A stretch of DNA of 53,691 nt, from positions 1-53,691 of the forward strand of contig NZ_JADCBK010000007.1 of NCBI RefSeq assembly GCF_020253525.1. Reading direction: 5' to 3'. This document shows, piece by piece, positions 34,921 through 50,422 of the stretch; within the stretch, counting starts at the first letter, position 1; every line of letters begins with the position of its first letter. The translations under genes were made by a program, and so were the position numbers. Origin of the DNA: Aquidulcibacter sp. Its GTDB lineage: Bacteria > Pseudomonadota > Alphaproteobacteria > Caulobacterales > Aquidulcibacteraceae. Below the pieces are notes generated by a model. The model saw only the letters and a program-made list of their open reading frames with translations, ran no database searches and was not told where the DNA came from.

Positions 34921-35655
34921 TCACTCAATAAGTGTGGTCTCTTGCACAATTTTGTCGCCCACCAGGTGCAGGCACGTGCTGCCAGCAACGCGGTCTCGAC
35001 GCCCATCGACATCAATACGGGCCCATTGCCAGAGAAGGGCTCTATGATTTTCGAAACTCAGTTCTCGTTCAAACACAATGTGGGACTGCGGAAACGCCAA
35101 GAATTGGGCGAGCCACCAGCTTTTGAGGTCTGACAGCCCCCCCTCTAAGCCGGGGCCAGTCCAGCGTGCTTCATCATCATAAAGCGCGTTTAGGAGCCCA
35201 ATCTGCCTGCCGTTCCAAATCTTGTGTAGATTTTGAGCGATCAAGCTGAACCCAACAAGCTCACCCGGCCCGACTTGCCCGTGACCTGAATCTAATTCGC
35301 CAAGTAGCTGATGATGTTGCTGAATTGGTGCTGGATGAAGCGGACGCGAAATCACTCTATCGGCCGATATTCGGCCATTTTCCAGTATGATCCAGTAGTG
35401 CCGTCGCACAGTTGCGCCATCAGGCGATAACCACTCAACATCTGCAAACGCGTCTGTGCTGGCGTTGATTTGGAAGCGCCAGCCTGAAAACTCGGCGAGG
35501 TCGGCAAGGGCCTGCTGTCGGATGGCGTCTCGCCCGAAGATAAGTTCGCCGCGGCTACGTCGGGTGGCCCGATGCAGATAGAGTCGTTCAAGCGCGCCGA
35601 CATTTTCGTTGACATAGAGTTCAGTCAACATCTCGCCGAAGGTCATGGCGCTCAT
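34921..35655 (-). CDS. Double NTF2/SnoaL-like protein (third of its operon)
   Basis: 244 residues from the ATG at 35655, which overlaps the upstream gene's stop as ATGA. Two NTF2-like domains: residues 1-110 (MLTELYVNENVGALERLYLH, GRDAIRQQALADLAEFSGW) and 130-244 (IWNGRQIGLLNALYDDEARWTGP, WARIDVDGRRDRVAGST, VQETTLIE). Proteins of the SnoaL/scytalone dehydratase/ester cyclase fold catalyse cyclisation, dehydration or isomerisation in a conical pocket, or merely bind ligands. No catalytic residues can be assigned. Operon with cupin and a second NTF2-like gene. Confidence 0.7.
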   Translation of the reverse strand: MSAMTFGEMLTELYVNENVGALERLYLHRATRRSRGELIFGRDAIRQQALADLAEFSGWRFQINASTDAFADVEWLSPDGATVRRHYWIILENGRISADRVISRPLHPAPIQQHHQLLGELDSGHGQVGPGELVGFSLIAQNLHKIWNGRQIGLLNALYDDEARWTGPGLEGGLSDLKSWWLAQFLAFPQSHIVFERELSFENHRALLWQWARIDVDGRRDRVAGSTCLHLVGDKIVQETTLIE

Positions 35656-36716
35656 GCTCCACCGCTCAATTGATGCCACAGGGCGATCTCGTCAAAAATG
35701 GTGGTTTCTTCGACAATGACACCGCCCAAGGTGCGCCAATGGCTAATCGCTAAAATATAGAGCGGCACACCTGTTGGCGGGCCGTACAGCCCCGTGCTGT
35801 TATGGGTCCCGGCAAAGCTCCAGCGCACCGCGATGTCGGTGAAGGGCCCTTCGGTGACGGATCCAACATGGTCAACGCGAATGCGTGCACCTTTAGACAT
35901 GGACAAGAGCGCGCCAATCCATCCCGCTATTTCGCCATGGCCAAACAGCAACCGGGCATCCGGCCCGGCCCAATGGGCATGGGGGGCATAGATTTCCCTC
36001 ACCCGCGATAAGCGACGCAAGTTCCAAATTTGCTGAAAAACGAGGTGGGCAAACTCATCGGGATCTTGAGCGGGATCGGGAAATGATGGGTCTTTAAAGT
36101 CCAATGGCCCCTGGCCAAGAATGTCATCAATAAGCTTTGCCCGCCAGTCTGCGATCCCGGCATTGGCCGCTGGTAAAACCTTGGCTTGCGCCTGCCCTAA
36201 AGCCTTCGCGCTCGTCCCCAAATCACGGGCAATCTTGGCATTGTCTCGGACAAGCCATTCTTCAACGATGCGGTTTTCAAGGCACAAGCAATCGGCAATG
36301 GTTGTGAAACAAACCCTGCGCCCAGTCGCAGGCCCAAATTCGCCGTCGCCTTGATGGGTAGCGTGGCTCGTGATGCGATGGGATGAATGATAGCCATCGG
36401 TCTCATTACCCGACCAGATAACTGCCTCGCCCACCAAGGTTCGATCCGGAAAGCTGTTCAAGGTTTTGAGCGTGCCCGCGATCACACCCTCAACGCCCGC
36501 GACATCGCCACTCATCAAATGGATCGGACAATCGGGACTATAATGGGTGGCGATAAGACCAATGTCCTTTTCCTCCCAAATTCGGTGCGTACAGCGAATG
36601 ATATAGTCAATGATGTCCACATAAATCGGGTCAAAGCCCTGCATGGGCTGTCGGCGTGCACCTTGAGGCGCAAGGAGGTCGGCAATGTCTCGACCATAAA
36701 GGCCCAAAGCGCTCAT
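35652..36716 (-). CDS. Double NTF2/SnoaL-like ester cyclase-type protein
   Basis: 354 residues from the ATG at 36716; the longer frame overlaps the cupin gene. Domain 1 (about 30-165) has IYVDIIDYIIRCTHRIWEEKD, YSPDCPIHLMSGDVAGVEGV and FTTIADCLCLENRIVEEWLVRDNAKIARDLG, the SnoaL-like ester cyclase pattern. Domain 2 (about 215-350) has LVFQQIWNLRRLSRVREIYAPHAHWAGP and VIVEETTIFDEIALWHQL. It starts seven bases after the cupin stop. Role likely in the catabolic regulon bounded by the LacI-like operators; chemistry unknown. Confidence 0.72.
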   Translation of the reverse strand: MSALGLYGRDIADLLAPQGARRQPMQGFDPIYVDIIDYIIRCTHRIWEEKDIGLIATHYSPDCPIHLMSGDVAGVEGVIAGTLKTLNSFPDRTLVGEAVIWSGNETDGYHSSHRITSHATHQGDGEFGPATGRRVCFTTIADCLCLENRIVEEWLVRDNAKIARDLGTSAKALGQAQAKVLPAANAGIADWRAKLIDDILGQGPLDFKDPSFPDPAQDPDEFAHLVFQQIWNLRRLSRVREIYAPHAHWAGPDARLLFGHGEIAGWIGALLSMSKGARIRVDHVGSVTEGPFTDIAVRWSFAGTHNSTGLYGPPTGVPLYILAISHWRTLGGVIVEETTIFDEIALWHQLSGGA

Positions 36717-36723
36717 TGTGGCC

Positions 36724-37674
36724 CTATAATTTTTTGACGACGTGGATAACGCTGTCTTGGTTGGCAATTATTTTGGGCGTTTCTTCCCGAGGAACAGACA
36801 ATGTATCGCCAATCTCTAAAGGCAAGGGACCGTCTTCACACGTCAGGGTCAGCGCGCCTCGATGAACAAACAGCACCGCACCAGCTATCTCTTGAAGCTC
36901 TTGGCCCGCTTTGAGCGAGACTTGCGACAGGCTGAAACCATGCTCACCGCGCAAGATGCCGTCTTTATGGATGATCGGGTAGGTGCCCGGCTTTGCTTTT
37001 GCAACAAAAGATGCCGCCTCCGCCGGCGTGACAACGCGAAGTGAGGCAACTTGCTCTGCGGTTGTTTCGGGCATGATGGCGGCATCAGGAGGTACCATTT
37101 GCCCAGCCACCGTGTCGATCAACTGACCCGTCTCCAACAGGACAAGTCCATGCTTTCGGGCCAATTTGAAAACATCTGGCGCCCAAAGAACACGACCGGG
37201 ATCATCCTGGCCCAGAACCGCCCACAGGAAGCCTATGTCTTCGCCAATATTGGTAAATCCGCGAAACATGCCCGTCGGTATCGAAATGACATCCCCAGGC
37301 CCCATTTCAACCTGAGCATCTTGACCCTTTTCACCCAAATCAAAGCGCCAATGCCCCGTATGAACGAGAAATACTTCTGCCGTATCGTGACTATGCTGAG
37401 AGTTCACACATGCGGGTGGTTGGCGGGCACCCCCAATATTGAAACCATGCGGCTCAGCAATATGGACATATTGATCGGGATTTTCAGAAACCCCGGGGCC
37501 AATAATGGTGAAATTCTCTTTTGCTTCCGACCCCGGTGAACGACAGTCGATGAAAGCATTATAGCACGGACGCAAATCTACGTAGCGCACCAAACGCGCT
37601 TCCCAATCTTCTGCGCGCCTGGGGCGCAGACCTTCGCGGGACATAGAAGCAAAATCCTGATCCACCCCAACCAT
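36724..37674 (-). CDS. Two-domain cupin protein
   Basis: 316 residues. First cupin (about 85-160): SQHSHDTAEVFLVHTGHWRFDLG with metal-binding His-His-Glu, then PGDVISIPTGMFRGFTNIG. Second cupin (about 240-310): GFSLSQVSLKAGQELQEI, LFVHRGALTLTCEDG, IGDTLSVPREE; its metal ligands are mostly missing. The first domain could be a dioxygenase, isomerase or ligand sensor. First gene of a three-gene minus-strand operon, about 80 bases from the LacI-like operator at 37755-37768. Confidence 0.75.
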   Translation of the reverse strand: MVGVDQDFASMSREGLRPRRAEDWEARLVRYVDLRPCYNAFIDCRSPGSEAKENFTIIGPGVSENPDQYVHIAEPHGFNIGGARQPPACVNSQHSHDTAEVFLVHTGHWRFDLGEKGQDAQVEMGPGDVISIPTGMFRGFTNIGEDIGFLWAVLGQDDPGRVLWAPDVFKLARKHGLVLLETGQLIDTVAGQMVPPDAAIMPETTAEQVASLRVVTPAEAASFVAKAKPGTYPIIHKDGILRGEHGFSLSQVSLKAGQELQEIAGAVLFVHRGALTLTCEDGPLPLEIGDTLSVPREETPKIIANQDSVIHVVKKL

Positions 37675-37754
37675 CCAATCATCAGAACCTGGCGATCGAC
37701 AGATTCTTCAACACCCTAAAAGCCACTTGCTTCAAAATAAGGGTTTACGACCGT

Positions 37755-37768
37755 TGCATTCGAAGTCA
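37755..37768. promoter_or_regulatory. LacI-like operator, copy A
   Basis: TGCATTCGAAGTCA with a central TTCGAA, identical to the site at 40563-40576 and close to TGACTTCGCAGTCA at 44122-44135. It lies between the divergent cupin and NTF2-like genes, overlapping a possible promoter (TTTACG at 37744, CAATAT at 37767, spacing 17). Confidence 0.72.
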
Positions 37769-37779
37769 ATATGCTTTGG

Positions 37780-38790
37780 ATGAACGAACCGAAAAACCTC
37801 AAGCCGGACTACTGGCGCGCAATCGATGCGGCGCGCGACTTAAGCCTCTGTGCGTCCAACCTCTTGAACGAACTCTATGCCCCAAACTGTGTCATGTCGG
37901 TGTGTGCCCCATTTGACCGCGCCACGGGGGATCGTTTGGTTGGTCGAGACGCGATTTATGAGGGCTTCTTCGCCCCTTTAGTGGCGTCTTTCTCCGACCT
38001 CGAACGCCGCACCGACATCTTGATGCAGGGTGTTTTCAAATCGGGTGATTGGATTGCCAGTTACGGTTGGCTCGTTGGCAGGTTTGAAAAGGACTTCTTT
38101 GGGATTGCCGCAACCCATCGTCCTCACTGGCTTCGCTTTGGCTGGTTTGAGCGACTGGAATATGGTCAAGTTGTTGAAAGTATTGTTATCCTAGACATTG
38201 CACGGCTGATGATAGAATGTGGCGTTTGGCCGGTTCGAGCACAATTGGGTGAATCCTGGTCGCCTGCACCAGCCACCCAAGACGGCCTATACCTTGGCTT
38301 GTCGGAGGCTTCTGAGAGCGAGAAGAGCCTGAAACTGGTTGAAGCCATGATTGCCGGTCTCATGAGTTATGACGGCAAGTCGCTAAAGAGCATGGGCATG
38401 ACCCGCTTTTGGACCCCTCAGTTTCATTGGTATGGGCCCGGCGGCATTGGCAGTGCCCGCGGGCATCAGGATTATGAACGGGCGCACCAACAACCCTTTT
38501 TGACCGCGTTTCCAGACCGTATCGGCGGCAATCACCGGTGTCGCATTGGGGATGGTGCTTTTGTCGCATCCTCAGGCTGGCCCAGCATAAACGCGACGCA
38601 TCTGGGCGATGGGTGGTTAGGGCTTCCGGCAACCAACAAGCGCATAACCATGCGCGTTATGGATTTCTGGCGTCGCGATGGCGACTTCCTGAGTGAAAAT
38701 TGGGTCTTTATCGATATGATCGACCTGCTCAAGCAGTTCGATTTAGATGTGTTTGCAGGCCCTTTGGCTAAAGCAAAAGCGGGGGCATGA
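37780..38790 (+). CDS. Double NTF2/SnoaL-like protein (divergent copy)
   Basis: 336 residues from ATG 37780, or 339 from ATG 37771; neither has a ribosome-binding site, and the promoter inferred from the operator places the transcript start near 37780, so the mRNA may be leaderless. Domain 1 (about 15-140): LLNELYAPNCVMSVCAP, GRDAIYEGFFAPLVASF, ESIVILDIARLM. Domain 2 (about 185-330): MTRFWTPQFHWYGPGGIGSARG, PFLTAFPDR, NWVFIDMIDLLKQF. Architecture parallels the two minus-strand neighbours. The Na+ symporter starts one base after its stop, so they form an operon. Confidence 0.7.
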   Translation: MNEPKNLKPDYWRAIDAARDLSLCASNLLNELYAPNCVMSVCAPFDRATGDRLVGRDAIYEGFFAPLVASFSDLERRTDILMQGVFKSGDWIASYGWLVGRFEKDFFGIAATHRPHWLRFGWFERLEYGQVVESIVILDIARLMIECGVWPVRAQLGESWSPAPATQDGLYLGLSEASESEKSLKLVEAMIAGLMSYDGKSLKSMGMTRFWTPQFHWYGPGGIGSARGHQDYERAHQQPFLTAFPDRIGGNHRCRIGDGAFVASSGWPSINATHLGDGWLGLPATNKRITMRVMDFWRRDGDFLSENWVFIDMIDLLKQFDLDVFAGPLAKAKAGA

Positions 38791-38791
38791 C

Positions 38792-40396
38792 ATGAAGTTT
38801 GACGCACTTGATTGGGCAATCGTCATCGCCTTTTTGATTGGCAATCTGGTGCTTGGTTATGTCTTGGGTCGTAAAGTCACGACTGCCAAGGAGTTTAACC
38901 TCGGAAGCGGTTCAACACCGTGGTGGGCAATCGGTCTGTCGGTGATTGCCACCTATATCAGTGCGCTTTCCTTTTTGGGCGCGCCCGCCTGGGCCTATAA
39001 GGATGGACTGGCGGCCTTAGCCATTCATTTGAATTATCCCATCGTCATTATTCTGGTCACAGGCTTCTTCCTACCCTTCTTTTATATGAGTGGGGTTGCC
39101 TCAATTTATGAGTATCAAGAACGTCGGTTTGGGCAATTAAGTCGGGCCGTCATGTCGATTATTTTCTTGGTGACACAAGGCCTATCAACGGGCGCGATCC
39201 TGTTTGCGACTGCCCTTGTTTTGAAGTTCATTACTGGGATGTCCATCCCCATGGCCGTGGTGATCGTGACCATTATGGCTCTCATCTATACAACGATGGG
39301 CGGCATGTTGGCCGTTATCTGGACCGATGTCTTCCAAGCAGCGGTTTTGTTTGGTGGCGCGATCGTCATTCTCATTGCGCTTTTTGTTTCCATGCCGACA
39401 CCAGTTGGTGAGGTCTTGGCAAACCTCAAGGAATTGGGGCGGTTGAGTGCGATTGATTTCACACCCGACCCAAGTGTGGCGACGACCATTTATTCGGGCC
39501 TGTTTGGCATGACGTTGTTTCACATCACCGTTTATGGTGCGAACCAGATGATGGTTCAGCGTACCTTAGGGGCGAAGAACATAGGTGACGCCAAAAAATC
39601 CTATCTTTTAATGGGCTATGCCGCCTTTCCGATCTATTTTCTGTTCTTCTTCATCGGCGTGCTTGCCTATGGCTATTATGACGGCAAGCCTTTCGACCAG
39701 CCCAATCAAATCATCTTGCAATTTGCCTCAGAGTCTGGGGTGCCGGGGTTGCTCGGTATCTTGGCAGCAGCGGTTTTGGCGGCCTCCATGTCGACCTTAA
39801 GCTCTGCCTTCAATTCGATGGCGACGGCCAGCGTGGTCGACTTCTATCAACGCTATTTCAAAAAAGATGGAGATGACGCACATTATCTCCGCGCAACCCG
39901 TATAGCGACGGTCATTTGGGCGGTCATCATCATTGGCCCTGCAATCCTCTACGATCAATCCAACGGCTCCATTCTGGAAGTTTTGAGCAAGATTGGCAGC
40001 TATTTTGTTGGGGCAAAGCTTGGCATGTATGGCTTGGGCTTCTTCTCAAAGCACACAACTGAGCGCGGCCTGATGGCTGGTGTGGTCGCAGGTTTTGCCA
40101 TCATTTGGTTCGTCGCAAATTACACCGATGTTGCTTGGCCTTGGTTCTGCTTGATCGGCGGGGCGGCAACCATCATTGTCGGCTGGACCGCAAGCCGCAT
40201 CTTGGACGGCAAGCAAGCCGAATGGTCCCCTTATTCCGTGCCGGGTCAACAAGCCCGGTTTGCAGCGGAAGGCCGGCCGCTCAAGGATGGTAATTGGAAT
40301 ACGATGCCGGGCGCAATTGATAAGCAGAGCCTGTGGTTGCTGGCCTATCTTGTCGCCACCTTGATCGCCTTGGCTCTGTTTGAATATCTCGTCTGA
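38792..40396 (+). CDS. Sodium:solute symporter family transporter
   Basis: 534 residues from the ATG at 38792; the longer frame runs into the preceding gene. About 13 hydrophobic helices. Family elements include FNLGSGSTPWWAIGLSVIATYISALSFLGAPAWAY near the N-terminus, the Na+-site region, and FNSMATASVVDFYQRYFKK in the C-terminal half. SSS transporters import sugars, amino acids, organic acids or osmolytes with Na+. Here it would move the regulon's substrate over the inner membrane after uptake through the TonB receptor that follows. Confidence 0.9.
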   Translation: MKFDALDWAIVIAFLIGNLVLGYVLGRKVTTAKEFNLGSGSTPWWAIGLSVIATYISALSFLGAPAWAYKDGLAALAIHLNYPIVIILVTGFFLPFFYMSGVASIYEYQERRFGQLSRAVMSIIFLVTQGLSTGAILFATALVLKFITGMSIPMAVVIVTIMALIYTTMGGMLAVIWTDVFQAAVLFGGAIVILIALFVSMPTPVGEVLANLKELGRLSAIDFTPDPSVATTIYSGLFGMTLFHITVYGANQMMVQRTLGAKNIGDAKKSYLLMGYAAFPIYFLFFFIGVLAYGYYDGKPFDQPNQIILQFASESGVPGLLGILAAAVLAASMSTLSSAFNSMATASVVDFYQRYFKKDGDDAHYLRATRIATVIWAVIIIGPAILYDQSNGSILEVLSKIGSYFVGAKLGMYGLGFFSKHTTERGLMAGVVAGFAIIWFVANYTDVAWPWFCLIGGAATIIVGWTASRILDGKQAEWSPYSVPGQQARFAAEGRPLKDGNWNTMPGAIDKQSLWLLAYLVATLIALALFEYLV

Positions 40397-40399
40397 AGG

Positions 40400-40439
40400 C
40401 GACTCAGTTTTGCATGCGCATGCGAGATGGGCTGAGTCG
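40400..40439. repeat. Hairpin with internal palindrome after symporter gene
   Basis: Outer arms CGACTCAG (40400-40407) and CTGAGTCG (40432-40439) enclose GCATGCGCATGC (40412-40423), itself a perfect palindrome. No T-run follows. It may end or stabilise the symporter mRNA. Confidence 0.45.
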
Positions 40440-40562
40440 TGCCTGCCTCATAGAGCAGAGCATTAGACCAGTTTGCGGGCATTTCTGCCACACTTGGACA
40501 TTTCTCGCGCAGCAAGGTCATAAATTACGCCCAGACGGCGCATGACCCTGTTAAATTCTGCT

Positions 40563-40576
40563 TGCATTCGAAGTCA
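40563..40576. promoter_or_regulatory. LacI-like operator, copy B
   Basis: TGCATTCGAAGTCA, identical to copy A over 15 bases including the preceding T. It abuts a possible -10 (CATAAT, 40575-40580) and lies 46 bases ahead of the TonB receptor ATG. Confidence 0.72.
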
Positions 40577-40621
40577 TAATACAATCATATTATCTTTCGA
40601 AAAATCGAGGGGGTCCTTGCG

Positions 40622-43270
40622 ATGCTGAATAATTTCGTCACTCACGCGACAAAAACAACACTTTTAGCAACCATATCCAGCTTGGCCTTTATGGTCGCGA
40701 CGCCGAGCTTCGCGCAACAAAGTCCCTCGGATGCAACAGCCGAGCCTGAGCGTGGCATTGAAACCGTTGTGGTGACGGCACAGCGGCGCGAGGAAAACCT
40801 GCAGAATGTGCCCCTGTCTGTATCCGCCTTTAGCGCTGCCCAAATTCAAGCGCGCGGCCTTACCGACATGTCGCGCCTCGAAAACTCGGTACCCGGCCTA
40901 ACATTTGGGCGTTCGGGTGTTGATGCGCGTCCCGCCATTCGCGGCGTTCGTACCGAAAATGTCGGCGTAAATGGCGATACCACAATCGGCTTCTTCATTG
41001 ATGGCGTGTATCAATCGCGCGCCCAGCAGGCGACTTTAGGCTTCGTTGATCTTGATCGCGTTGAAGTGTTGCGTGGCCCACAGGGAACCCTTTATGGCCG
41101 CAACACATTTGGCGGCAATATCTCCATCGCGACCGCCCAGCCACGCATGGGACAGTTCAAAAGCGGGCTAGACGTCACAATCGGCGAGAACAACAAAGTT
41201 CGCATCGAGTCATTTGTGAACATCCCCATTAGCGACAATGCCGCTTTGCGCATCAGTGGGGCTTCAGAAGATGATGATGGCTATGTCAAGAACGTCAATC
41301 CAAACGGCAATAATCTGTTTGACGAAAAGACGCGCTATTTGCGGGCAGCTTTACTTCTGAAGCCAACAGACAAGCTGACAGCGACCATTAAGATCGACCA
41401 AGGAACCCGTGGTGGCGCGGGGGGCTCGGCCTTTGGCTATAAGCTTGTCGGCACTTTCTTCGACGTCCCTTCAAATCAGCAATTGTTCAATGCAACCCCG
41501 ATCCGCAATTTGAATACGCGTGGCGGGAATCGCGATGGGGTGGTCGATGCGCCACTCACCATTGATGCTGGCATTCCGCTGTTTGCTGCCGGTGACCCAT
41601 ACACCATTGATACCGACCAAAAGACCATTTTGGACCTAAGCTCCACAGGGGCTAGCGCCAACATTGCCTATGAGTTTGACGCCTTCACCCTCAAGTCCAT
41701 CACCGGCTTTGCGGACTTTGAGGCCGTGCGCACCTCTGACACGGATTTTTCCGCCAGCACAATCGGTACAGACTATCAGCTAACGTCGGCGAAGACGTTC
41801 AGCCAGGAATTCCAGATCTTGTCACGCGGGGAAGGCCCGCTGAGCTATGTTGTGGGTGCCTATTATTTTGATGACGAATTGCGCGGCGTCTTTATCAACG
41901 AGCAAGTACCACGGACCATTCGTGGGGTGGGGGCACCCGTCACTTTGCCTGTTGCCGGGGCCGGTTTCTATGATGAGCAACGCGCTGATACGACGTCGAT
42001 TGCAGCCTATGCCCAAGGCACCTATGCGGTGAACGAAGCCTTGAAGCTGACGGCTGGCCTTCGATTTACCCGTGACACGAAGGACTTCAAATTCGCCAAT
42101 GCGGCATCCGTGCTTCCCCTGACCGGGACACCCCCAACGCCAGTGGGGACCGCGATCACCTTGGCCACCGGCGGCATTCCAGCCAGTGCCTTTGGGTCCA
42201 AGGGTGCGCCTACCAATTGCGTGTTTGCGGCAACCGCAATCCAGCCACGTCCGGGCTTTGCCTGTTTGGCCGCCAATACGGCAGTGCTGACTGGGGCGAC
42301 CTATGATACGGCTGAGTTTGAGAAGCTGACCTGGCGCTTGGCCGCCGATTATCAGCTGAGTGAAGACAGCCTGCTTTACGGCTCTGTTTCAACGGGTTTC
42401 CGTTCAGGCGGGTTTAACTCGGGTCAGAACCAAGCCGCTCTGACCCCAACCTTCAAACCCGAAGAAGTCACCGCATTTGAAATCGGTAGCAAAAATCGCT
42501 TCTTGGACAATACGCTGCAATTGAACATTGCTGCTTTCTTCAACCAATATGACAGCCTGCAAGAGCAGCGGCAGATCCCGGCAGGCAATACGACCCTGTC
42601 GATCATCGAGAACAGCGGTAAAGCCGAAGCCACTGGTGCTGAAATTGAGGCCATCTGGCGTCCGATTGATGATTTGACGCTGAACTTCTCGCTCTCGGTC
42701 CTAGATGCGAAATACACCGACTATACCAATGTGCCCTTGCCATTCGGGACCTCGATTGTTGTGGCAGACGCAACTCAACTCACCCCGACAATTGTCAACG
42801 GCATCACGATTGCCAATGCTGGGCAGCGTCGCATTTTCGCACCGGGCTATAATTGTGGCCCAGTTCCAGGAACCGGGACTGGCGCTCCAGGTGCCCCAGC
42901 CTTGGCCTTTGGCTGTGATCTGACGGGCAAGAAACTGCCATATGCATCTGACTATTCGGGCAGTTTCTCGGCTCAATATGTCTTTGACCTCGGCGGTCTG
43001 GGCCAAGTCACGCCCTTAGCCGTCCTGACGTTCAATAGCGGTTTCTATGGCCAACCTGCCAACTCAATCTTGGACAAGCAGGACGCTTACACGAAACTGG
43101 ACTTGCGCGTTACGTGGGATCTGAATGACAATCTGTCTTTGGGTGCCTTTGTCAACAATGTGACCGATGAAGCAACGGCGACCCGCTTCGTTTGGGGCGG
43201 CGGCGGTGCCCTCCAAGCCAGCTATGCGCCACCTAAGCTCTGGGGCATTAAGGCAAATCTGCGCTTCTGA
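40622..43270 (+). CDS. TonB-dependent receptor (outer membrane active transporter)
   Basis: 882 residues. Signal peptide ends ATPSFAQ; TonB-box-like IETVVVTAQRREENLQNVP, then the plug: RPAIRGVRTENVGVNGDT, GFFIDGVYQ, VEVLRGPQGTLYGRNTFGGNISIATAQP. The barrel ends in Phe (GIKANLRF). This type (IroN/CirA-like with REENLQNVP) is common in sphingomonads and caulobacters and takes up varied carbon substrates as well as siderophores. GAGGGGG precedes the ATG. The LacI-like operator overlapping its promoter links it to the catabolic genes. Confidence 0.9.
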   Translation: MLNNFVTHATKTTLLATISSLAFMVATPSFAQQSPSDATAEPERGIETVVVTAQRREENLQNVPLSVSAFSAAQIQARGLTDMSRLENSVPGLTFGRSGVDARPAIRGVRTENVGVNGDTTIGFFIDGVYQSRAQQATLGFVDLDRVEVLRGPQGTLYGRNTFGGNISIATAQPRMGQFKSGLDVTIGENNKVRIESFVNIPISDNAALRISGASEDDDGYVKNVNPNGNNLFDEKTRYLRAALLLKPTDKLTATIKIDQGTRGGAGGSAFGYKLVGTFFDVPSNQQLFNATPIRNLNTRGGNRDGVVDAPLTIDAGIPLFAAGDPYTIDTDQKTILDLSSTGASANIAYEFDAFTLKSITGFADFEAVRTSDTDFSASTIGTDYQLTSAKTFSQEFQILSRGEGPLSYVVGAYYFDDELRGVFINEQVPRTIRGVGAPVTLPVAGAGFYDEQRADTTSIAAYAQGTYAVNEALKLTAGLRFTRDTKDFKFANAASVLPLTGTPPTPVGTAITLATGGIPASAFGSKGAPTNCVFAATAIQPRPGFACLAANTAVLTGATYDTAEFEKLTWRLAADYQLSEDSLLYGSVSTGFRSGGFNSGQNQAALTPTFKPEEVTAFEIGSKNRFLDNTLQLNIAAFFNQYDSLQEQRQIPAGNTTLSIIENSGKAEATGAEIEAIWRPIDDLTLNFSLSVLDAKYTDYTNVPLPFGTSIVVADATQLTPTIVNGITIANAGQRRIFAPGYNCGPVPGTGTGAPGAPALAFGCDLTGKKLPYASDYSGSFSAQYVFDLGGLGQVTPLAVLTFNSGFYGQPANSILDKQDAYTKLDLRVTWDLNDNLSLGAFVNNVTDEATATRFVWGGGGALQASYAPPKLWGIKANLRF

Positions 43271-43327: not shown

Positions 43328-43329
43328 GC

Positions 43330-44085
43330 CTATTGCGCTGTCCAGCCTCCATCAACGAGCAGGCTAGTGCCCGTCACCATGCCGGAGGCAGGACTTGCAA
43401 GATACAAGACCGCCGCCGCAACATCTTCCACCTGCCCAATCTTGCCCATTGGGATCATGCCCTTAACAAAACTAAGGAACGCGGGATCGTCCAACATGGG
43501 CTTGGTCATCGCGGTTTCGATAAAGGTCGGTGCCACCGAGTTTACGCGTATGCCTTGGGGGGCAAGCTCTACCGCCATCGCCTTGGTCAAACCTTCTAAC
43601 GCATGTTTGGTCATGCAATAGACCGTGCGCCTTGGCGAGCCGACATGACCCATTTGACTGGTGATATTGATGATTGAGCCGCCACGCCCATGGGCCAACA
43701 TCGATTTTACGGCGGCTTGGGCGACTAAATAGGCAGCGCGTACATTGAGGTCTAGCATTCTATCGAGTGTCTCTGGTTCGACCTCTTGGATTGGAAGCGG
43801 GCGGTTCATGCCGGCATTATTGACAAGGATGTCGATCTCGAGCTTGCCCAAATCGGCAATAAATTCAGGATCGGTCAGATCGCCGACCATCGGTAGAATA
43901 TTGGCGTTTTGATCAGCCAGCTCTTGCAAATCGACCGCGTTACGCGCCACGGCATGCACCTTGGCACCCGCCTCCGCGAGATAAACTGCGATGCTCGACC
44001 CGAGCCCCCGACTAGCCCCGGTTACGACAGCTTGTCGCCCTGAAAGCCCCTGTGCCCAAACTGGAAGCATCGTGCTTTTTCCCAT
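43330..44085 (-). CDS. Short-chain dehydrogenase/reductase
   Basis: 251 residues from ATG 44085; ATG 44070 is also possible, while the open frame to 44157 covers the operator and is unlikely. TGASRGLGSS, LVNNAGMNRP, INITSQMGHVGSPRRTVYCMTKHALEG with Ser/Tyr/Lys, and LVDGGWTAQ. Similar to 2-deoxy-D-gluconate 3-dehydrogenase or gluconate dehydrogenase-like SDRs by general pattern. It is divergent from the histidinol-dehydrogenase-family gene, with a LacI-like operator between. Confidence 0.85.
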   Translation of the reverse strand: MGKSTMLPVWAQGLSGRQAVVTGASRGLGSSIAVYLAEAGAKVHAVARNAVDLQELADQNANILPMVGDLTDPEFIADLGKLEIDILVNNAGMNRPLPIQEVEPETLDRMLDLNVRAAYLVAQAAVKSMLAHGRGGSIINITSQMGHVGSPRRTVYCMTKHALEGLTKAMAVELAPQGIRVNSVAPTFIETAMTKPMLDDPAFLSFVKGMIPMGKIGQVEDVAAAVLYLASPASGMVTGTSLLVDGGWTAQ

Positions 44086-44121
44086 CACTGTATCCCATTC
44101 TTGTTTCCGCAATTTGGTCTT

Positions 44122-44135
44122 TGACTTCGCAGTCA
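44122..44135. promoter_or_regulatory. LacI-like operator, copy C
   Basis: TGACTTCGCAGTCA has perfect TGACT/AGTCA arms. It combines with copies A and B to suggest the symmetric consensus TGACTTCGAAGTCA. It lies between the divergent SDR and hisD-family genes. Confidence 0.65.
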
Positions 44136-44189
44136 TTTCCGTTAGCGTAGCGTGCAATCGAGCTAAGTAGCAAGCGTTGGGAGGCTGAT

Positions 44190-45479
44190 TTGGCCAAGTA
44201 TCTGAAAACCGGAATCAGTGAAACGGCAGCTGAGGAAGCCGATGCGGGCGTTCGGGCAACCGTTGAGGCCATCATTCAAGACATCAAGGCCAGAGGTGAT
44301 GATGCTGTGCGCTATTGGTCGTCGAAATTCGACAATTGGGCACCCGATGATTTCAGACTGGGCCCAGATGCGATCGATGCTGCCTATCGCGCACTAAGCC
44401 TACAGACGATTGAAGATATTCGGTTCGCGCAAACACAGGTACGCAATTTTGCCCAAATCCAAAGAGACGCCCTCAAGGATGTTGAAGTCGAAACTTTGCC
44501 CGGCGTCGTTCTGGGGCATAAGAATTTGCCAGTGAACAGTGTGGGTTGCTATGTCCCCGGCGGCAAATATCCTTTGGTCGCATCTGCTCATATGAGTGTG
44601 GTGACTGCAAAAGTTGCAGGCGTGAAGCGGATTGTCTCGGTCGCCCCACCCTATCAAGGCGTGCCTAATCCAGCCATTGTAGTTGCGATGCACATGGCGG
44701 GTGCAGACGAAATCTATTGTATCGGCGGGGTGCAGGCGGTTGCCGCTATGGCGCTTGGAACCTCAACCATTGCCCCGGTTGATATGATCGTGGGTCCGGG
44801 CAACGCCTATGTCGCAGAAGCCAAGCGCCAACTTTTTGGCCGCATCGGCATCGACCTATTGGCCGGTCCGACCGAGACCCTCGTCATTGCCGATGAGAGC
44901 GTCGATGGCGAGCTATGTGCCGCTGACCTGTTAGGTCAGGCCGAACATGGCCCCAATTCACCGGCAGTCTTGCTGACCAATAGCGAGAAACTGGCGCGCG
45001 ATACGATGGCAGAGATCGAGCGACAGCTGACAATCCTGCCAACAGCGGCGATCGCGGGAAAAGCGTGGGCCGATTATGGCCAAGTCATCGTTGCTGATAG
45101 CTATGAAGAGATGGTCACAATCGCCGACCAAATTGCCTCGGAACATGTCCAAGTCATGACCCGTGATCCTGACTATTTCTTGAAAAACATGACCAATTAT
45201 GGCGCGCTCTTTTTGGGCTCTCGCACCAATGTCAGCTATGGGGACAAAGTAATCGGCACCAACCACACTTTACCAACGCGCGGCAATGCTCGCTTTACCG
45301 GCGGGCTGTGGGTTGGGAAATTCATCAAGACCTGCACTTATCAACGTGTCTTGACCGATGAGGCCAGTGTGATGATAGGTGAATATTGCTCACGCCTTTG
45401 CGCCATAGAAGGCTTTGCAGGCCATAAAGAGCAGGCAGATATTCGGGTGCGACGTTATGGCAAAAAAGAAGCCGCTTGA
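44190..45479 (+). CDS. Histidinol dehydrogenase family enzyme, HpsN-like
   Basis: 429 residues; TTG start with GGGAGG six bases upstream. Family blocks: [63 protein letters not shown] (zinc ligands Gln and His), ASEHVQV, and the C-terminal [12 protein letters not shown] His. The family includes HisD, which oxidises histidinol in two steps, and sulfopropanediol 3-dehydrogenase HpsN. No other his genes are present, the regulator is LacI-type and the cluster looks catabolic, so an HpsN-like oxidation of an alcohol to a carboxylate is the better guess. Overlaps the LacI gene. Confidence 0.85.
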
Positions 45480-46491
45480 TCAAACCACACAAGAGAAGAC
45501 TGGGGTGACATCCTATGATGTTGCACGTCGCGCCGGCGTGTCCCAGTCCGCCGTCAGCCGGGCCTTCAGGAAAGGCGCTTCCGTCGCACCGGCTACCCGG
45601 GCTCGCATTGTCGAGGCCGCTCAAGCGCTAGGCTATGAGCCCAATGCCATTGCACAAGGCTTGATTACCAAGCGCTCCAACCTCGTTGCCATCATTATTT
45701 CCAATCTAACAAACCTCTATTATCCAGAGGTCTTGGCCGAGCTCACCCAACGTTTGTCCCAACATGGGGTGCGCGTCCTTTTGTTTAGTTTGGCCGCAGA
45801 ATCTGATGTTGAGGAAGTTCTAGGTCAGGTCTGGCGTTACCGCGTCGATGGCGCGATTGTCGCCGCCCGTCTGTCTACGGATCAATTGGTTGCCTTCTCT
45901 AACCGCGGGGTCCCCTTGGTGCTCTATAACCGCGTTGGTGAAGGGGTGCCGGTCGCCAGCGTCTGTTGTGATTCAGACTTGGGCGAGCGTGCTTTGGTGG
46001 ACGGTTTGGTGCAAGCTGGCCATCGGTGCTTTGGAATTATCGGTGGGCCCGCTGATTCCTATGTCGGCGAAGAACGCGCCAATGCAGCGATGAATCGCCT
46101 CGCCCATCATGGCATTCAAGCCCAATTTGTCCGGGGTCGGTTCGATTATGAAAGTGGCGGTGCCGGCCTAAAGACACTGATGGACCTTACAGAGGGCAAG
46201 CTGGATGCGCTGATTTGCGTCAATGATTTAATGGCGATTGGGGCCATGGACACGGCGCGGAATATTATTGGCAAAAAGGTTCCAAACGAATTGTCGATCA
46301 CGGGCTTTGATGGCGTGAGCCCTGCAACTTGGGAGGCCTATCAACTCACGACGATCCGCCAGCCCGTGCGGCGCATGACCCAAGCGGCTGTCGCCATGCT
46401 GTTGGAGCGAATTGAAAGCCCAGACATTTCTCCAGAACAACGTTTGTTCGCGGGGGAATTGCTGTCCGGCCGGTCGGCACGTCTGTTGTGA
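45457..46491 (+). CDS. LacI family transcriptional regulator
   Basis: 344 residues from ATG 45457, inside the last 23 bases of the preceding gene. N-terminal helix-turn-helix with hinge: [20 protein letters not shown] ... [13 protein letters not shown]. The effector domain (about 75-340) has the periplasmic-binding-protein-like fold ([37 protein letters not shown]). It is the natural candidate for binding the three operator copies at 37755, 40563 and 44122. Its stop overlaps the next gene as GTGA. Confidence 0.9.
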
Positions 46492-47225
46492 CGGCACCTC
46501 CATCCCTCGTTTGGATCCCGGGCCACATGTGCGACCACAGACTGTGGCAGGATGTGGGGCCAATCACTGGCTACCCAAATGAGTTTGCTGACCTAACCCA
46601 GTCAGATCATGTTGAGAGCTTGGCCCATAATATCTTGGAGAGAGTTACAGGGCCCATTATCCCAATCGGCTTTTCTATGGGGGCTATTGTGGGGCTGATG
46701 ATGGCCAAGCTCGCACCTGAGCGCTTGGTTGGGATGGTGCTTTCCAGCACCAATTGCACGGCAGATTTACCCGAAAGATCGGCTGCCCGCCTAGCCCAAC
46801 AAGCCCAAGTTCGAGACGGCCACTTGCTCGAGATCGTACGAGACGAGCTTAAGCCACATTATCTAAGCCCTGCCTCGCTTGGCCAAAAGCGTGCAGAAAT
46901 CCTCGACCTAACTTTGAAAATGGGAATGGATCTTGGGCCAGACGTGTTTTTGCGCCAAAGCGAGGCACTTCGCACCCGACCAGCCCTATGCGACGTGATT
47001 GGCGGCTTCAAGGGCCCAATCCTTATCCTTGCTGGCGCAGACGACCGCCTATGTCCACCGGCCTGGCACGCCCAAATGGCTGCCCGTAATCGCCATGCCA
47101 GCCTTATCCAGATTGAAGGTGCCGGGCATTTGGTGCCGCTAGAGCAGCCATCAGCCTTCCTTCGGGCCATTTCAGACTGGCTAACCACCCTAAAAACAAC
47201 GCCAAAGCAGGAGATGAACGCATGA
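46488..47225 (+). CDS. Alpha/beta hydrolase
   Basis: 245 residues; GTG start overlapping the LacI stop. Ser nucleophile in IGFSMGAIVG, Asp in LILAGADDRLCPP, His in IEGAGHLVPLEQP. No signal peptide, so cytosolic. The fold suggests an ester or thioester hydrolase, or C-C hydrolase (MhpC-like); PGHMCDHRLW forms the oxyanion region. It overlaps the following MetE-like gene by ATGA. It is part of a tightly coupled four- or five-gene operon, consistent with a cleavage step in the same pathway. Confidence 0.85.
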   Translation: MTAPPSLVWIPGHMCDHRLWQDVGPITGYPNEFADLTQSDHVESLAHNILERVTGPIIPIGFSMGAIVGLMMAKLAPERLVGMVLSSTNCTADLPERSAARLAQQAQVRDGHLLEIVRDELKPHYLSPASLGQKRAEILDLTLKMGMDLGPDVFLRQSEALRTRPALCDVIGGFKGPILILAGADDRLCPPAWHAQMAARNRHASLIQIEGAGHLVPLEQPSAFLRAISDWLTTLKTTPKQEMNA

Positions 47226-48373
47226 GCGACCGCATTCTAACTACCCATGTCGGTTCATTGCCGCGCTCCAAAGCCGTCACGGACCTGATTTTTGCTGCAG
47301 AACGCGGCGACCCGATTGACCAAGCCCAATTTGACGAAGTGATTGGTAGAGCAGTTGATGAGACCGTCGCGAACCAAGTTCGGGTTGGGATCGATTTGGT
47401 TTCAGACGGCGAAATGTCCAAGATTTCCTATGCGACCTATATCAAGGACCGGATCACAGGCTTTGACGGCGATAGTCCACGAACCCCGCCTTCTGACCTC
47501 GAAGCCTTTCCAAGCTTTCTGCAACGCCAAGCCAGTGGTGGCGGTACGCCAACCTATCGGCGCCCAAAATGTATCGGTCCGGTTGCCGTGAAGTCGATGG
47601 AACCCCTCAAGGCCGACCTGCGCTTCATGGCAGTGGCCATCGCGAAGCATCAGCCTGTTGCGGGCTTCATGAATGCTGCTTCGCCCGGCGTCATCGCGCT
47701 CTTCCAACCTAATGAGCATTACCCAACACAGGATGATTATCTTGAGGCCCTCGCCGAGGCCATGCGGCCAGAGTATGAGACAATCGTCGCGGCTGGCCTG
47801 ATCTTGCAACTCGACAGCCCAGATTTAGGGCTCGGGCGGCATATGATGTATAAAGATCGTAGCGATGAGGACTATCTCAAACTCATCGGCACCCATGTTG
47901 ATGTGCTGAACCATGCACTGCGCAATGTACCAGCAGACCGTGTTCGTATGCATGTCTGTTGGGGCAATTATGAAGGGCCGCACCATCATGATGTTGAGAT
48001 GGGCGTGATCCTGCCAACACTGATGAAGGCCAAGCCAGCAGGCCTATTGTTCGAGACCTCCAATCCACGTCACCAGCACGACTGGAATTATTTTGTTGAA
48101 ATGCTGGCGATCATTCCAGACGACAAAATCCTGATCCCGGGCGTTATTGATTCGACGACTAATTTCATTGAGCATCCCCGGGTTGTGGCAGAACGCCTCG
48201 AGCGGTTTGCTGGAATCATTGGTCGAGAGCGCGTGATTGCAGGCACCGATTGCGGTTTCTCGACCTTTGCAGGGTTTGGGGCGGTTGATCCTGAAATTGT
48301 CTGGGCTAAACTCAAAACATTGGTTGATGGTGCCGAATTGGCGAGCAGCAAACTATGGAGCCAAGCCGCGTGA
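47222..48373 (+). CDS. Cobalamin-independent methionine synthase (MetE C-terminal)-like enzyme
   Basis: 383 residues: only the catalytic barrel of the MetE/UROD-like superfamily, as in epoxyalkane:CoM transferase and MetE C-terminal paralogues. TTHVGSLPRSKAV opens the barrel. Zinc ligands are visible: His and Cys in RMHVCWGNYEG, Glu in LLFETSNPRH and Cys in AGTDCGFSTF, so thiol activation is plausible. The folate-binding N-terminal half of true MetE is absent. It may transfer or remove an alkyl group on sulfur, or perform lyase chemistry. Coupled to the hydrolase before and the aldolase after. Confidence 0.82.
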   Translation: MSDRILTTHVGSLPRSKAVTDLIFAAERGDPIDQAQFDEVIGRAVDETVANQVRVGIDLVSDGEMSKISYATYIKDRITGFDGDSPRTPPSDLEAFPSFLQRQASGGGTPTYRRPKCIGPVAVKSMEPLKADLRFMAVAIAKHQPVAGFMNAASPGVIALFQPNEHYPTQDDYLEALAEAMRPEYETIVAAGLILQLDSPDLGLGRHMMYKDRSDEDYLKLIGTHVDVLNHALRNVPADRVRMHVCWGNYEGPHHHDVEMGVILPTLMKAKPAGLLFETSNPRHQHDWNYFVEMLAIIPDDKILIPGVIDSTTNFIEHPRVVAERLERFAGIIGRERVIAGTDCGFSTFAGFGAVDPEIVWAKLKTLVDGAELASSKLWSQAA

Positions 48374-49119
48374 GTGCGTTTCGAGATAAGCTGCGCGCGG
48401 GTGACGTGATTGCAGCAACTTGGGTCAAAACACCTAGCCCAATGATTGTCGAGGTCTTGAGCCTGAGTTCGCTGGACTGCTTAGTCCTCGATGCCGAACA
48501 TGCCCCGTTTGACCGGACGAGCTTAGACTTATGCATTTTGGCCGCACGAGCCTATGCAAAACCCGTACTTGTGAGGCCTGCATCGAGCAGTCATGAGCAC
48601 ATTCTCAATGCCCTTGATTGTGGTGCCGATGGCGTCGTCCTTCCCCATATTCGCAGTGCCGAGGAGGCCGCCGAAGCCGTGAAAGCCTGCCACTATGGCC
48701 GGGGCGGTCGCGGTTATGCCGGTTCTAGCCGCTCAGCAGGTTATACAACCAAGGGCATGGCGAAACATCGTGAGACCGCCAAAAATGTCATCGTCATTGC
48801 ACAGATCGAAGACGTTGAAGCCGTTGAAGAATGTGAGGCAATCGCGCGGGTAGAGGGAATTGACGCGCTATTTATTGGTCGTGCGGACCTGACCGTCGCC
48901 TATGGCGCGACAACGCCCGATGATGAGATCGTCGTGGCAGCTGTCGAGCGGATCGTTGCCGCTGGAAAAGCCGCAGGACGGGTCACGGGGTTGTTCCTTG
49001 CGCGGACTAGCGATGTGCCCCTTTGGCGTGAAAAAGGGGCGAGCCTTTTTGTCTTAAGCTCAGATCACGATTTCATCCTGCAAGGCGCTGCTGCCCTCAG
49101 CCAAGCCATTCGAGGCTGA
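48370..49119 (+). CDS. HpcH/HpaI family aldolase/lyase
   Basis: 249 residues from GTG 48370 (GTGA overlap with the MetE-like stop, GGAG upstream); ATG 48355 is an alternative. The class II aldolase pattern: LDCLVLDAEHAPFD, KPVLVRPASSSHEHILNALDCGADGVVLPH, IAQIEDVEAVEECEAI with the metal Glu, and DALFIGRADLTVAYG with the metal Asp. Family members cleave 2-keto-3-deoxy or 4-hydroxy-2-oxo acids to pyruvate plus an aldehyde, so this may be the final cleavage step of the pathway. Confidence 0.88.
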   Translation: MSAFRDKLRAGDVIAATWVKTPSPMIVEVLSLSSLDCLVLDAEHAPFDRTSLDLCILAARAYAKPVLVRPASSSHEHILNALDCGADGVVLPHIRSAEEAAEAVKACHYGRGGRGYAGSSRSAGYTTKGMAKHRETAKNVIVIAQIEDVEAVEECEAIARVEGIDALFIGRADLTVAYGATTPDDEIVVAAVERIVAAGKAAGRVTGLFLARTSDVPLWREKGASLFVLSSDHDFILQGAAALSQAIRG

Positions 49120-49150
49120 ATGTGCGGGTCTGGAAGGCTGAAACGCCCTG

Positions 49151-50422
49151 TCACCGTACCAAGCGTTTGCGAAAGTAAAGCGCGGAGGCGCAAATGCCGA
49201 GGAAGCCGATAAAACCAACGCCATAGGCAGCTTGGACAAAAAATGGCACCCAAGCGAGATGGATATTGCCCAGATTCTTGGTCAGAAGTAGGCTGATACT
49301 GCCAATATAGCCAACCGAATCAGCAACATAGATTAGAAACCCGGCCGTGGCGACACGGCCACTGGCCGCCACCAGTCGGTCAAACAGGACCGTATTGAAC
49401 GGGGTATAAGCCGCATAAAGCCCTGCGCCCACCAAAATCATCCAGAGAATGGGACCAATCAGCCCAAGCTGGAAAGCCAAAGTCGACAGGCCGATACAGG
49501 CAAAGCCTGCCGCTAAAATGCCATGCACAACGAGAAAGGCGATCCGATTATCCTTGATTACCATAAGGGAGGCTAAGATGGCCAAAGCCACAACAGCAAC
49601 CGGCAGCTCAGATAGGGTAAAGATCGCGGCACCATTGGCCTGGCCAAGGTCGCGCCAAATCTCGGCGGCGAAATTGTCGCGGAAATCGCGAAAGGCGGTC
49701 AGAAAGACATAGGCACCGACAAGAAGGATAAGGCCGGGCGCATAGGCCAACATAAAGCCATTACGCTCTTTGGGCTGCATGGGCGCGCGACGGACGCGTT
49801 GGGCCTGATCCTCCTCTGAGGGAGGTGGCAAGAGGGATAGGCCCCAGACGGCCAAAAACAACAGCGGAAAGAATAATGCCCCAGCTGCCGCTGGCATCCA
49901 GAACGGGCTGATGGCAAACTGGCTCATCAAAAGGCTTCCGACAGTTTTCACAATGCCAGAAGAGACAATGAAGCTGACACAGAGGATTGCGCCAAGAGCC
50001 TCAGAGGTTCTGCGCCCCTCCAAAAAACTGAAAACCAAGCCCCAAATCAGCCCCAGAGGCAGCCCATTGAGAAACAGTGCCGCGACATTCCAAGGGGCTG
50101 GAACAAGCGCGAATAGGATGAGGGCAAACCAAGAAAAGCCGATCAGGGCCAAGATTGCGACCCCCCGTTTGGCCCCATCTAATTCCGCAATGACCTTGAT
50201 ACCGATGAATTTCGAGACGGCATAACCCAGCACTTGGGCTATTACCAAGGCGACCTTGTAATCGAGAATAAAGCCCCAGCCCGCGACATCTTCATAGGTC
50301 GCCGCCGAAAACGGCTTGCGAAACGCAAACATCGAAAAATAGGCGCAAAAAGCAACAAGGCCACCATAGGCAATGAAAGCCGCCGGATGGGCACGCGATA
50401 ACCAAGATTGAACCCGCCCCAT
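49151..50422 (-). CDS. Major facilitator-type transporter (DUF5690-like)
   Basis: 423 residues with 12 hydrophobic segments. GGLVAFCAYFSMFAFRKPFSAATYED near the N-terminus is characteristic of the DUF5690 group within the MFS. A cytosolic loop is at about residues 205-230 (EEDQAQRVRRAPMQPKERNG). Function of the group is not known to me. It is convergent with the aldolase gene and may export or import an intermediate of the nearby pathway, but no LacI-like operator is seen at its promoter. Confidence 0.78.
   Translation of the reverse strand: MGRVQSWLSRAHPAAFIAYGGLVAFCAYFSMFAFRKPFSAATYEDVAGWGFILDYKVALVIAQVLGYAVSKFIGIKVIAELDGAKRGVAILALIGFSWFALILFALVPAPWNVAALFLNGLPLGLIWGLVFSFLEGRRTSEALGAILCVSFIVSSGIVKTVGSLLMSQFAISPFWMPAAAGALFFPLLFLAVWGLSLLPPPSEEDQAQRVRRAPMQPKERNGFMLAYAPGLILLVGAYVFLTAFRDFRDNFAAEIWRDLGQANGAAIFTLSELPVAVVALAILASLMVIKDNRIAFLVVHGILAAGFACIGLSTLAFQLGLIGPILWMILVGAGLYAAYTPFNTVLFDRLVAASGRVATAGFLIYVADSVGYIGSISLLLTKNLGNIHLAWVPFFVQAAYGVGFIGFLGICASALYFRKRLVR

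Follow-up and report, generated by a model that had tools for sequence, protein, structure and literature searches.

The locus at 34921-50422 of our window (a 53,691-nucleotide stretch of contig NZ_JADCBK010000007.1 from Aquidulcibacter sp.) raises the question of whether its genes serve a single catabolic pathway and, if so, for what kind of substrate. We think it probable that 34921-49119 is one LacI-regulated catabolic unit for a methylated, polyhydroxylated, carbohydrate-like compound, with LacI probably acting as a repressor; that about 12 genes, found together across many unrelated bacteria, form one co-regulated pathway is well supported. Pfam and NCBIfam assignments bore out the gene families proposed in an earlier sequence-only reading (Table 1). 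Its description of three double NTF2-like proteins holds for NTF2b and NTF2c, and NTF2a has one SnoaL domain by Pfam. The MFS gene that it had placed in the cluster, which encodes a DUF5690 protein, does not belong there: within the genus it is present in the window, L125 and L023 (the last two apparently one strain) and absent from L121-L124, and it was found in 0 of 79 related loci (from the best 80 of 584 relatives). Since the listed SDR reading frame overlaps the third operator copy, the true start of this gene is probably further downstream.

Table 1. Features of the putative catabolic unit and its flank (positions in the window)
Feature	Positions	Strand	Basis
NTF2a, SnoaL_2 protein, 252 aa; genus-level accessory	34921..35679	-	Pfam SnoaL_2
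NTF2b, double SnoaL/NTF2 protein, 371 aa	35652..36767	-	Pfam; AF2 model
Bicupin, 316 aa; invariant H94, H96, E100 in domain 1	36724..37674	-	Pfam, alignments, AF2
Operator TTGCATTCGAAGTCA, precedes NTF2c	37754..37768	+	Exact match; conserved in siblings and Sphingomonadales
NTF2c, double SnoaL/NTF2 protein, 339 aa	37771..38790	+	Pfam
SSF sodium:solute symporter	38747..40396	+	Pfam; TIGR00813 above cut-off
Operator TTGCATTCGAAGTCA, precedes TonB receptor	40562..40576	+	Exact match; conserved
TonB-dependent receptor, 882 aa	40622..43270	+	Pfam
SDR oxidoreductase	43330..44157	-	Pfam
Third operator copy, degenerate, in SDR/HisD divergent region	44121..44135	+	3 mismatches
HisD-like dehydrogenase, GKYPL type (motif of neither HisD nor HpsN)	44190..45479	+	Pfam, PDB alignments, motif counts
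LacI-family regulator	45415..46491	+	Pfam LacI HTH and Peripla_BP_3
Alpha/beta hydrolase	46488..47225	+	Pfam
MetE-like zinc methyltransferase without folate N-terminal domain	47222..48373	+	Pfam Meth_synt_2 only
HpcH/HpaI aldolase	48355..49119	+	Pfam
DUF5690 gene, outside the unit	49151-50422		Pfam "unknown function"

We examined gene neighbourhoods in the best 80 of 584 relatives, a set seeded with the MetE-like protein so that recurrence counts are conditional on it; removal of the same-genus locus L023 before counting left 79 loci, and open reading frames were called simply as the longest ones. Among the 52 of these loci that span at least 17 kb, HisD recurred in 46, the cupin and LacI in 42 each, NTF2b and SDR in 40 each, NTF2c in 35 and the alpha/beta hydrolase in 31, whereas of 25 other window genes used as controls, 22 recurred in none. 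The neighbourhood is conserved, and the lack of co-occurrence that the sequence-only reading had named as evidence against a single pathway was not seen. In annotated roseobacter plasmids, most of the cluster genes form a compact operon together with a sugar-type CUT1 ABC transporter. NTF2a had no relatives at E≤1e-20 in the 79 loci (best 80 of 584), though weak matches exist, and is kept within the genus (L121-L125); in Sinorhizobium L135 the HisD gene is split into two unannotated pieces. Counting against the favored explanation, 16 of the 79 loci (best 80 of 584), several of them short contigs, held neither HisD nor cupin, and only 29 of 51 cupin-seeded loci held a MetE-like gene (51 loci fetched, leaving out the short, weak matches G306 and G201, the host and G005).

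The regulator combines a LacI helix-turn-helix with a domain of sugar-binding type, and we infer that it binds the palindromic operators which precede transcription units and are confined to the cluster. The shared operator, TTGCATTCGAAGTCA / TGCATnCGnATGCA, gave 107 sites in 52 of the 79 loci (best 80 of 584), none of them inside a labelled gene, and the reversed pattern used as control had no match in these loci. Exact sites in 101 relatives lay within the cluster in 16 of 17 cases. Shared operators, as previously proposed, are upheld by two exact 15-mers and a third copy conserved in L121-L124; matches at 3 mismatches in the window (4 against 1.9 expected) are not significant, and we count the third copy because it has only 0-1 mismatches in L121-L124 (3 in L125 and L023). 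A search of 20 genomes found no match in three (those of L064, L051 and L045), and the reversed control matched in two. A slightly wider palindrome is present in Devosia. In 44 loci with CUT1 transporters, a set that includes non-roseobacters, the asymmetric form occurred in none and the palindrome in one, and a roseobacter operator was not found.

Replacement of one gene family by another also fits a single pathway. Across 117 cupin loci, the HpcH/HpaI and RraA pyruvate aldolases, which occupy the same place in the cluster, seldom occurred together (HpcH only, 52; RraA only, 31; both, 3); the 31 loci with neither, which may reflect partial contigs or the threshold, count against this explanation. 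HMG/CHA activity is known in both families. Similarly, CUT1 transporters were present in 44 and TonB receptors in 38 of these loci, both in none and neither in 35; transporters of carbohydrate type predominate. TRAP transporters, which usually carry acids, stood instead in 6 of 51 cupin-seeded loci, which counts against the favored explanation, and the solute-binding protein, taken as a substrate guide, gave one weak PDB match (5iai). The CUT1 transporters and the SSF symporter would also suit breakdown of a methylated sugar, sugar acid or cyclitol through lactones (by SDR, a COG3618-type lactonase and the alpha/beta hydrolase) to a 2-keto-3-deoxy acid. Consistent with this route, the HpcH protein is nearest to 2-dehydro-3-deoxyglucarate aldolases, an amidohydrolase family found in 23 loci has as its nearest solved entry 4dlf, which we take to be a lactonase, and a related three-gene module adjoins an acid-sugar kinase-like protein. 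We regard this route as possible though unlikely, as it leaves the cupin, the NTF2 proteins and the HisD-like enzyme unexplained, and no sugar dehydratase was among the recurrent families.

In the MetE-like enzyme, the zinc- and homocysteine-binding residues (HCEC; S433/E484/D599), the criteria for core methionine synthases in the available text of PMC7857596, were kept in 97 of 97 sequences. Because these residues are intact while the host encodes its own MetH, the enzyme likely demethylates the substrate, and the same residues strengthen the earlier suggestion of a methoxylated natural product; a role as the host's sole methionine synthase is disfavored by MetH. Like the core methionine synthases (MesA-D, core-MetE, Mes-like), the protein consists of the MetE catalytic domain only, but at most of the loci examined its gene has catabolic neighbours. 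In Phaeobacter inhibens, deletion of the "Mes-like" gene PGA1_c27430 gave a mutant that grew and still showed shortening of the lag phase by DMSP, in keeping with our explanation. The authors raised the possibility that residual growth of their Δbmt strain depends on Mes-like acting as an additional methionine synthase (PMC12366255, as far as its text was available); this would favor a biosynthetic role and counts against our explanation. The knock-out primers for PGA1_c27430 matched the cupin and RraA genes of the operon in relatives (4 mismatches allowed; unrelated genes also matched at 3-4), suggesting that this gene lies in the P. inhibens version of the operon. In PMC12478193, the role of core-MetE homologues from marine bacteria, among them P. 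inhibens, is described as questionable. Bulk transfer of methyl groups to homocysteine would need C1 or methionine-recycling genes, so the finding of no such family among the recurrent operon genes counts against our explanation. MetE paralogs at about 48% did not serve as a functional guide, since those inspected (gene names, by eye) lie in other surroundings; in N. pentaromativorans, one of them neighbours genes for aminomethyltransferase, metF, purU and ligA. Mutual replacement of MetE and an amidase was rejected as well (117 cupin loci: both, 5; amidase alone, 5); the amidase was accompanied by HisD-B in 8 of 10 loci.

In the bicupin, H94, H96 and E100 were invariant in alignments of 23 and 21 sequences, in which only HxHx3E was evident and a fourth metal histidine was not found (the folded cupin alignment left out L032, which holds X, and L079). 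The AF2 model (pLDDT 86) had no single closest enzyme by VIA-align: quercetin 2,3-dioxygenase, pirin and oxalate decarboxylase, at about 10-15% identity, were tied with seed storage bicupins (vicilins). This predicted likeness to quercetin dioxygenases would accommodate catabolism of the UV sunscreens mycosporines, mycosporine-like amino acids (MAAs) or gadusols. By the chemistry of these compounds, HisD would oxidise the ring CH2OH, the MetE-like enzyme would remove the 2-O-methyl group, the cupin would open the reductone to 4-carboxy-4-hydroxy-2-oxoadipate (CHA), and HpcH or RraA would cleave CHA to pyruvate and oxaloacetate. Such substrates account for a methyl group, a CH2OH beside a tertiary OH, the cupin and the HpcH/RraA swap, and the second HisD and the amidase could serve amino-alcohol mycosporines of fungi. 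Recorded sources of carriers include leaf (Leaf339, Leaf420), a bloom (L032), a lichen MAG (L039, holding MetE-like and HpcH only) and coral; Octadecabacter presumably came from sea ice and Marinovum from a dinoflagellate. However, few records state a habitat and these habitats suit many other compounds, the proposal rests on chemistry without a diagnostic gene, the fourth metal histidine was not found, and we know of no sugar ABC transporter that imports MAAs. We hold a sunscreen substrate, the boldest of the candidates, to be doubtful, and give an outside chance to its fullest form: a widespread pathway with a B12-free zinc/homocysteine O-demethylase, bicupin reductone opening and CHA cleavage, to which HisD-B and the amidase add fungal amino-alcohol mycosporines. 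In the available portions of the open-licence PMC literature, we found no description of MAA degradation or of this gene cluster, which is not the subject of PMC8305402, PMC10418091 or, beyond its core-MetE remark, PMC12478193.

The NTF2b model (pLDDT 87) has the SnoaL family and 3rga as its nearest folds, and in L293 the alpha/beta hydrolase and a double NTF2 protein form a single fusion. In other systems SnoaL proteins act as polyketide cyclases, and the SnoaL/ester-cyclase annotation could speak for biosynthesis of a small natural product. Given the importers, the pyruvate aldolase and LacI control, and since neither the cluster genes nor the recurrent families include a synthase or carrier protein, we judge this very improbable.

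The HisD-like enzyme has HpsN as its nearest solved structure (392 against 281 bits in the PDB) and keeps the zinc and catalytic residues of HpsN (Gln248, His251, Glu318, His319, Asp352 and His411). It carries GKYPL where biosynthetic HisD has GSAPL, and the host has a separate HisD (G000:C96, 39% identical). HpsN has a GRY(A/S)H motif whose His126 binds the sulfonate (PMC11382572, available text). All 112 readable copies at 60% identity or more have G(K/R)(Y/F)P(L/M/I) in place of this motif, and the HpsN histidine occurred in 0 of 112, which makes a sulfonate substrate unlikely and does not support the organosulfur hint previously drawn from the likeness to HpsN. As in the DHPS system (hpsRNOUP-suyAB), a HisD-fold NAD dehydrogenase adjoins SDR genes, with an MFS gene nearby in some loci, but MetE-like, cupin, NTF2 and aldolase genes are further members of the present cluster. 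Organosulfonate catabolism of DHPS or sulfoquinovose type, despite sulfatase-like genes in 5 loci (judged by sequence start), is very improbable given the motif replacement and four roseobacter stretches (annotation incomplete) in which neither sulfolactate lyase nor SuyAB was annotated.

From the observed co-occurrence, shared operators, residue conservation and swaps, we infer the type of substrate (a probably methylated, carbohydrate-like compound), each reaction, the sequence of steps and whether LacI represses or activates. The TonB receptor and SSF symporter would import the substrate, the HisD-like enzyme would oxidise a CH(OH)-CH2OH group to the acid, and SDR a secondary alcohol. The MetE-like enzyme would then transfer the substrate methyl to zinc-bound homocysteine; the bicupin, alpha/beta hydrolase and double NTF2 proteins may act on the carbon skeleton by opening, isomerising or hydrolysing it; and HpcH (RraA elsewhere) would release pyruvate by retro-aldol cleavage. 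LacI would act at TGCATnCGnATGCA-type operators until released by either the substrate or an intermediate. The sequence-only reading had anticipated one co-regulated pathway in which a compound is taken up, an alcohol is oxidised to an acid and a pyruvate aldolase cleaves a C-C bond, and co-occurrence, operator and the HpcH/RraA and TonB/CUT1 swaps all fit it.

Of 385 Alphaproteobacteria sampled, 31, the host among them, carried the cupin marker; some of these carriers combine a genome size of 1.4-2 Mb with a completeness of at least 90%, and the substrate of the cluster is therefore probably common. The cluster joins a HisD subfamily that differs from HisD as well as from HpsN with a MetE-like enzyme, and the names "hisD", "hpsN" or "methionine synthase" given to genes of these operons are probably wrong. 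A MetE-like family that keeps all zinc and homocysteine residues in a catabolic setting suggests cobalamin-free demethylation of the substrate, an idea that could be put to the test with ES138, the Δmes-like strain of P. inhibens already described.

Pfam and NCBIfam assignments bore out the gene list of the LacI-controlled catabolic cluster that the sequence-only reading had placed at 34921 to 50422. In the genus, a gene for the MetE-like protein is present in six of nine genomes (including the host, with a genome of 3.49 Mb) at 90-100% identity, and in all six carriers the genes from NTF2a to HpcH adjoin it. Apart from the window, the DUF5690 gene adjoins the cluster only in the nearest same-genus relative (L125 and L023, apparently one strain), and we therefore place the end of the unit at the last base of HpcH; the genes of the proposed range are all present, but the DUF5690 gene is not retained as a member. 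The features that flank the cluster are included in the table.

Coordinates of the cluster, its operator copies and neighboring features in the window
Feature	Position	Remark
Siderophore-type TonB receptor, then an ABC ATPase and two DUF3526/ABC2 membrane proteins	29149-34752	
Cluster	34921-49119	NTF2a to HpcH
Operator 15-mer TTGCATTCGAAGTCA	37754	Exact; before NTF2c
Operator 15-mer TTGCATTCGAAGTCA	40562	Exact; before the TonB receptor
Copy of TTGCATTCGAAGTCA	44121	Degenerate
DUF5690 gene	49151-50422	
TrcR-family cell-cycle regulator	50658-51377	PF06242
Subtilase	51451-53595	

Taking the best 80 of 584 MetE-like relatives from named genomes, and leaving out L023, we obtained 79 loci, of which the 52 that were at least 17 kb long were searched by tblastn (1e-20). 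The genes of the cluster recur together in these genomes, as would be looked for in a single pathway: HisD in 46 of the 52 loci, cupin and LacI in 42 each, NTF2b and SDR in 40 each, NTF2c in 35, HpcH in 33, the TonB receptor in 32, the alpha/beta hydrolase (ABH) in 31 and SSF in 26, with NTF2a and DUF5690 in none. Among 25 other window genes that served as our control, 22 were absent from all 52 loci, one occurred in a single locus, and two were found in 36 and 28 loci because both are SDR proteins, paralogous with that of the cluster. Neither HisD nor cupin was found in 16 of the 79 loci, several of which are short contigs. The cupin is present in 31 of 385 genomes of a class sample and 24 of 398 of a partly overlapping phylum sample; the 51 loci fetched from these samples contained NTF2b (40), LacI (38), HisD (37), SDR (36), ABH (30), a sugar-type ABC transporter (CUT1; 30), MetE (29), the RraA-family aldolase (20) and HpcH (12). 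Annotated plasmids of Ruegeria, Octadecabacter and Marinovum carry a compact operon of most cluster genes with a sugar ABC transporter. Separately, three loci of Microbacterium and Nakamurella (L040, L043, L044) encode MetE-like proteins 73-79% identical to that of the window, with neither HisD nor cupin in the vicinity; L043 has a glycerate kinase gene ~5 kb away. One genome of the host's family (G023) holds 13 matches to the MetE-like protein, several of them adjacent.

Aldolase and importer are both swapped among versions of the cluster. Of 117 cupin-containing loci, 52 have HpcH but not RraA, 31 have RraA but not HpcH, 3 have both and 31 have neither; CUT1 is found in 44 and the TonB receptor in 38, never together, with neither in 35. 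Smaller versions in Klebsiella (L131), Pantoea (L143) and Labrenzia (L137) lack MetE and keep HisD, SDR, cupin, ABH and an aldolase, and in eight of ten amidase loci the amidase is paired with a further HisD (HisD-B, ~45% identity) as an accessory module. In Sphingomonas glacialis (L293, 7615-9534) ABH is fused in frame with a double NTF2 protein, which ties the ABH and NTF2 steps together; Sphingomonas sp. KR1UV-12 has a probable second such fusion (L294, ~4231-6084). One further locus (L242) has a three-gene cupin-HpcH-ABH module with a CUT1 transporter, adjoining an acid-sugar kinase-like protein (PF07005/PF17042) and a xylose-isomerase-like TIM barrel. The NTF2b model has a double SnoaL fold, and the cupin model (pLDDT 86) ties among quercetin dioxygenases, pirin, oxalate decarboxylase and vicilins.

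The shared operators seen by the sequence-only reading held up, in that the two exact copies are conserved and nearly confined to the cluster. Allowing up to three mismatches, TTGCATTCGAAGTCA has four window matches versus 1.9 expected, and 12 of 100 shuffles reach four. Taken alone, the degenerate copy does not beat chance; we count it as an operator because the same-genus loci L121-L124 keep it at 0-1 mismatches. Exact TTGCATTCGMAGTCA sites number 17 in 101 relatives, 16 of them inside the cluster of six cluster-bearing genomes and the other beside an Omp85 gene in a stretch without cluster genes (G091); none occurs in the three genomes of the genus that lack the cluster. An extended pattern, which also takes in the palindrome TGCATnCGnATGCA, gave 107 sites in 52 of the 79 named loci (48 of 59 having a LacI gene versus 4 of 20 without one). 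None of the 107 falls within labelled genes, though these make up 55% of the bases, and a reversed control pattern gave no site in the 79 loci. In 20 whole genomes, where contig identity was judged by coordinates and three genomes had no match, we found 32 strict palindromes, 31 of them inside a cluster locus or no more than 6 kb from it; among these 31 is the operator of a second whole-cluster copy (L291) in a Hyphomonadaceae MAG (G831, also the source of L050), and the 32nd lies near GAPDH in a stretch without cluster genes (L292). The operator is not shared by roseobacter-type CUT1 loci. Its distribution reads as a single-locus LacI regulon.

The best match of the HisD-like protein is the sulfopropanediol 3-dehydrogenase HpsN (392 bits; nearest HisD, 281 bits), whose zinc and catalytic residues it keeps in the alignment. 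HpsN has the motif GRY(A/S)H, the His126 of which holds the sulfonate, according to the part of PMC11382572 consulted, whereas the HisD-like protein has GKYPL in its place. Of 119 relatives at ≥60% identity in 157 loci, 112 were readable at the motif, and all 112 have G(K/R)(Y/F)P(L/M/I). With the sulfonate-binding histidine motif replaced throughout, the organosulfur substrate hinted at from the HpsN likeness is not borne out. By analogy with HpsN and HisD, in which the 2-hydroxyl or 2-amino group of the substrate coordinates zinc, the substrate would carry CH(OH)-CH2OH without a sulfonate. Of the copies at lower identity, 20 were readable and one of these, an HpsN-like paralog, has GRYSH; near one cluster copy among the 157 loci there may therefore be a true HpsN homologue.

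The MetE-like protein is without a folate domain. Its S12, E64, D198, H244, C246, E278 and C344 are retained in all 97 sequences; these are the residues by which Price et al. judge core methionine synthases in the part of PMC7857596 consulted. The host has MetH, and the MetE-like protein is its sole match to the MetE catalytic domain. In P. inhibens, as reported in the section of PMC12366255 consulted, deletion of the 'Mes-like' gene PGA1_c27430 indicated that it is not involved in DMSP lag-phase shortening, and its authors left a back-up role in methionine synthesis possible. The knock-out primers match, with one mismatch, cupin genes in six loci (L134, L207, L232, L234, L237, L238) and RraA in L238; because cupin and RraA flank MetE in the operon, PGA1_c27430 probably belongs to this cluster. 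A 48% MetE-like paralog on N. pentaromativorans pLA3 (L107) lies with an NTF2 gene near aminomethyltransferase, metF, purU, folD and ligA, which is an O-demethylation setting.

The analysis directly shows that the genes are linked, that they bear a signature of co-regulation, that key residues are conserved and that genes are swapped; from this we infer the reactions of the pathway, their order and the class of its substrate. Homocysteine could be the methyl acceptor of the MetE-like step; the operons show no recurrent recycling genes, and it is here that a demethylation reading is weakest. The boldest candidate substrate, a mycosporine, strikes us as improbable; its chemistry would presumably involve the reductone, 4-carboxy-4-hydroxy-2-oxoadipate and amino-alcohol mycosporines. 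Among the open-licence papers that our searches listed, none describes the cluster or its substrate, and PMC12366255, in the part consulted, deals with one cluster gene alone. The cluster is of a known type, a LacI-controlled catabolic operon, but its set of enzymes is unfamiliar.
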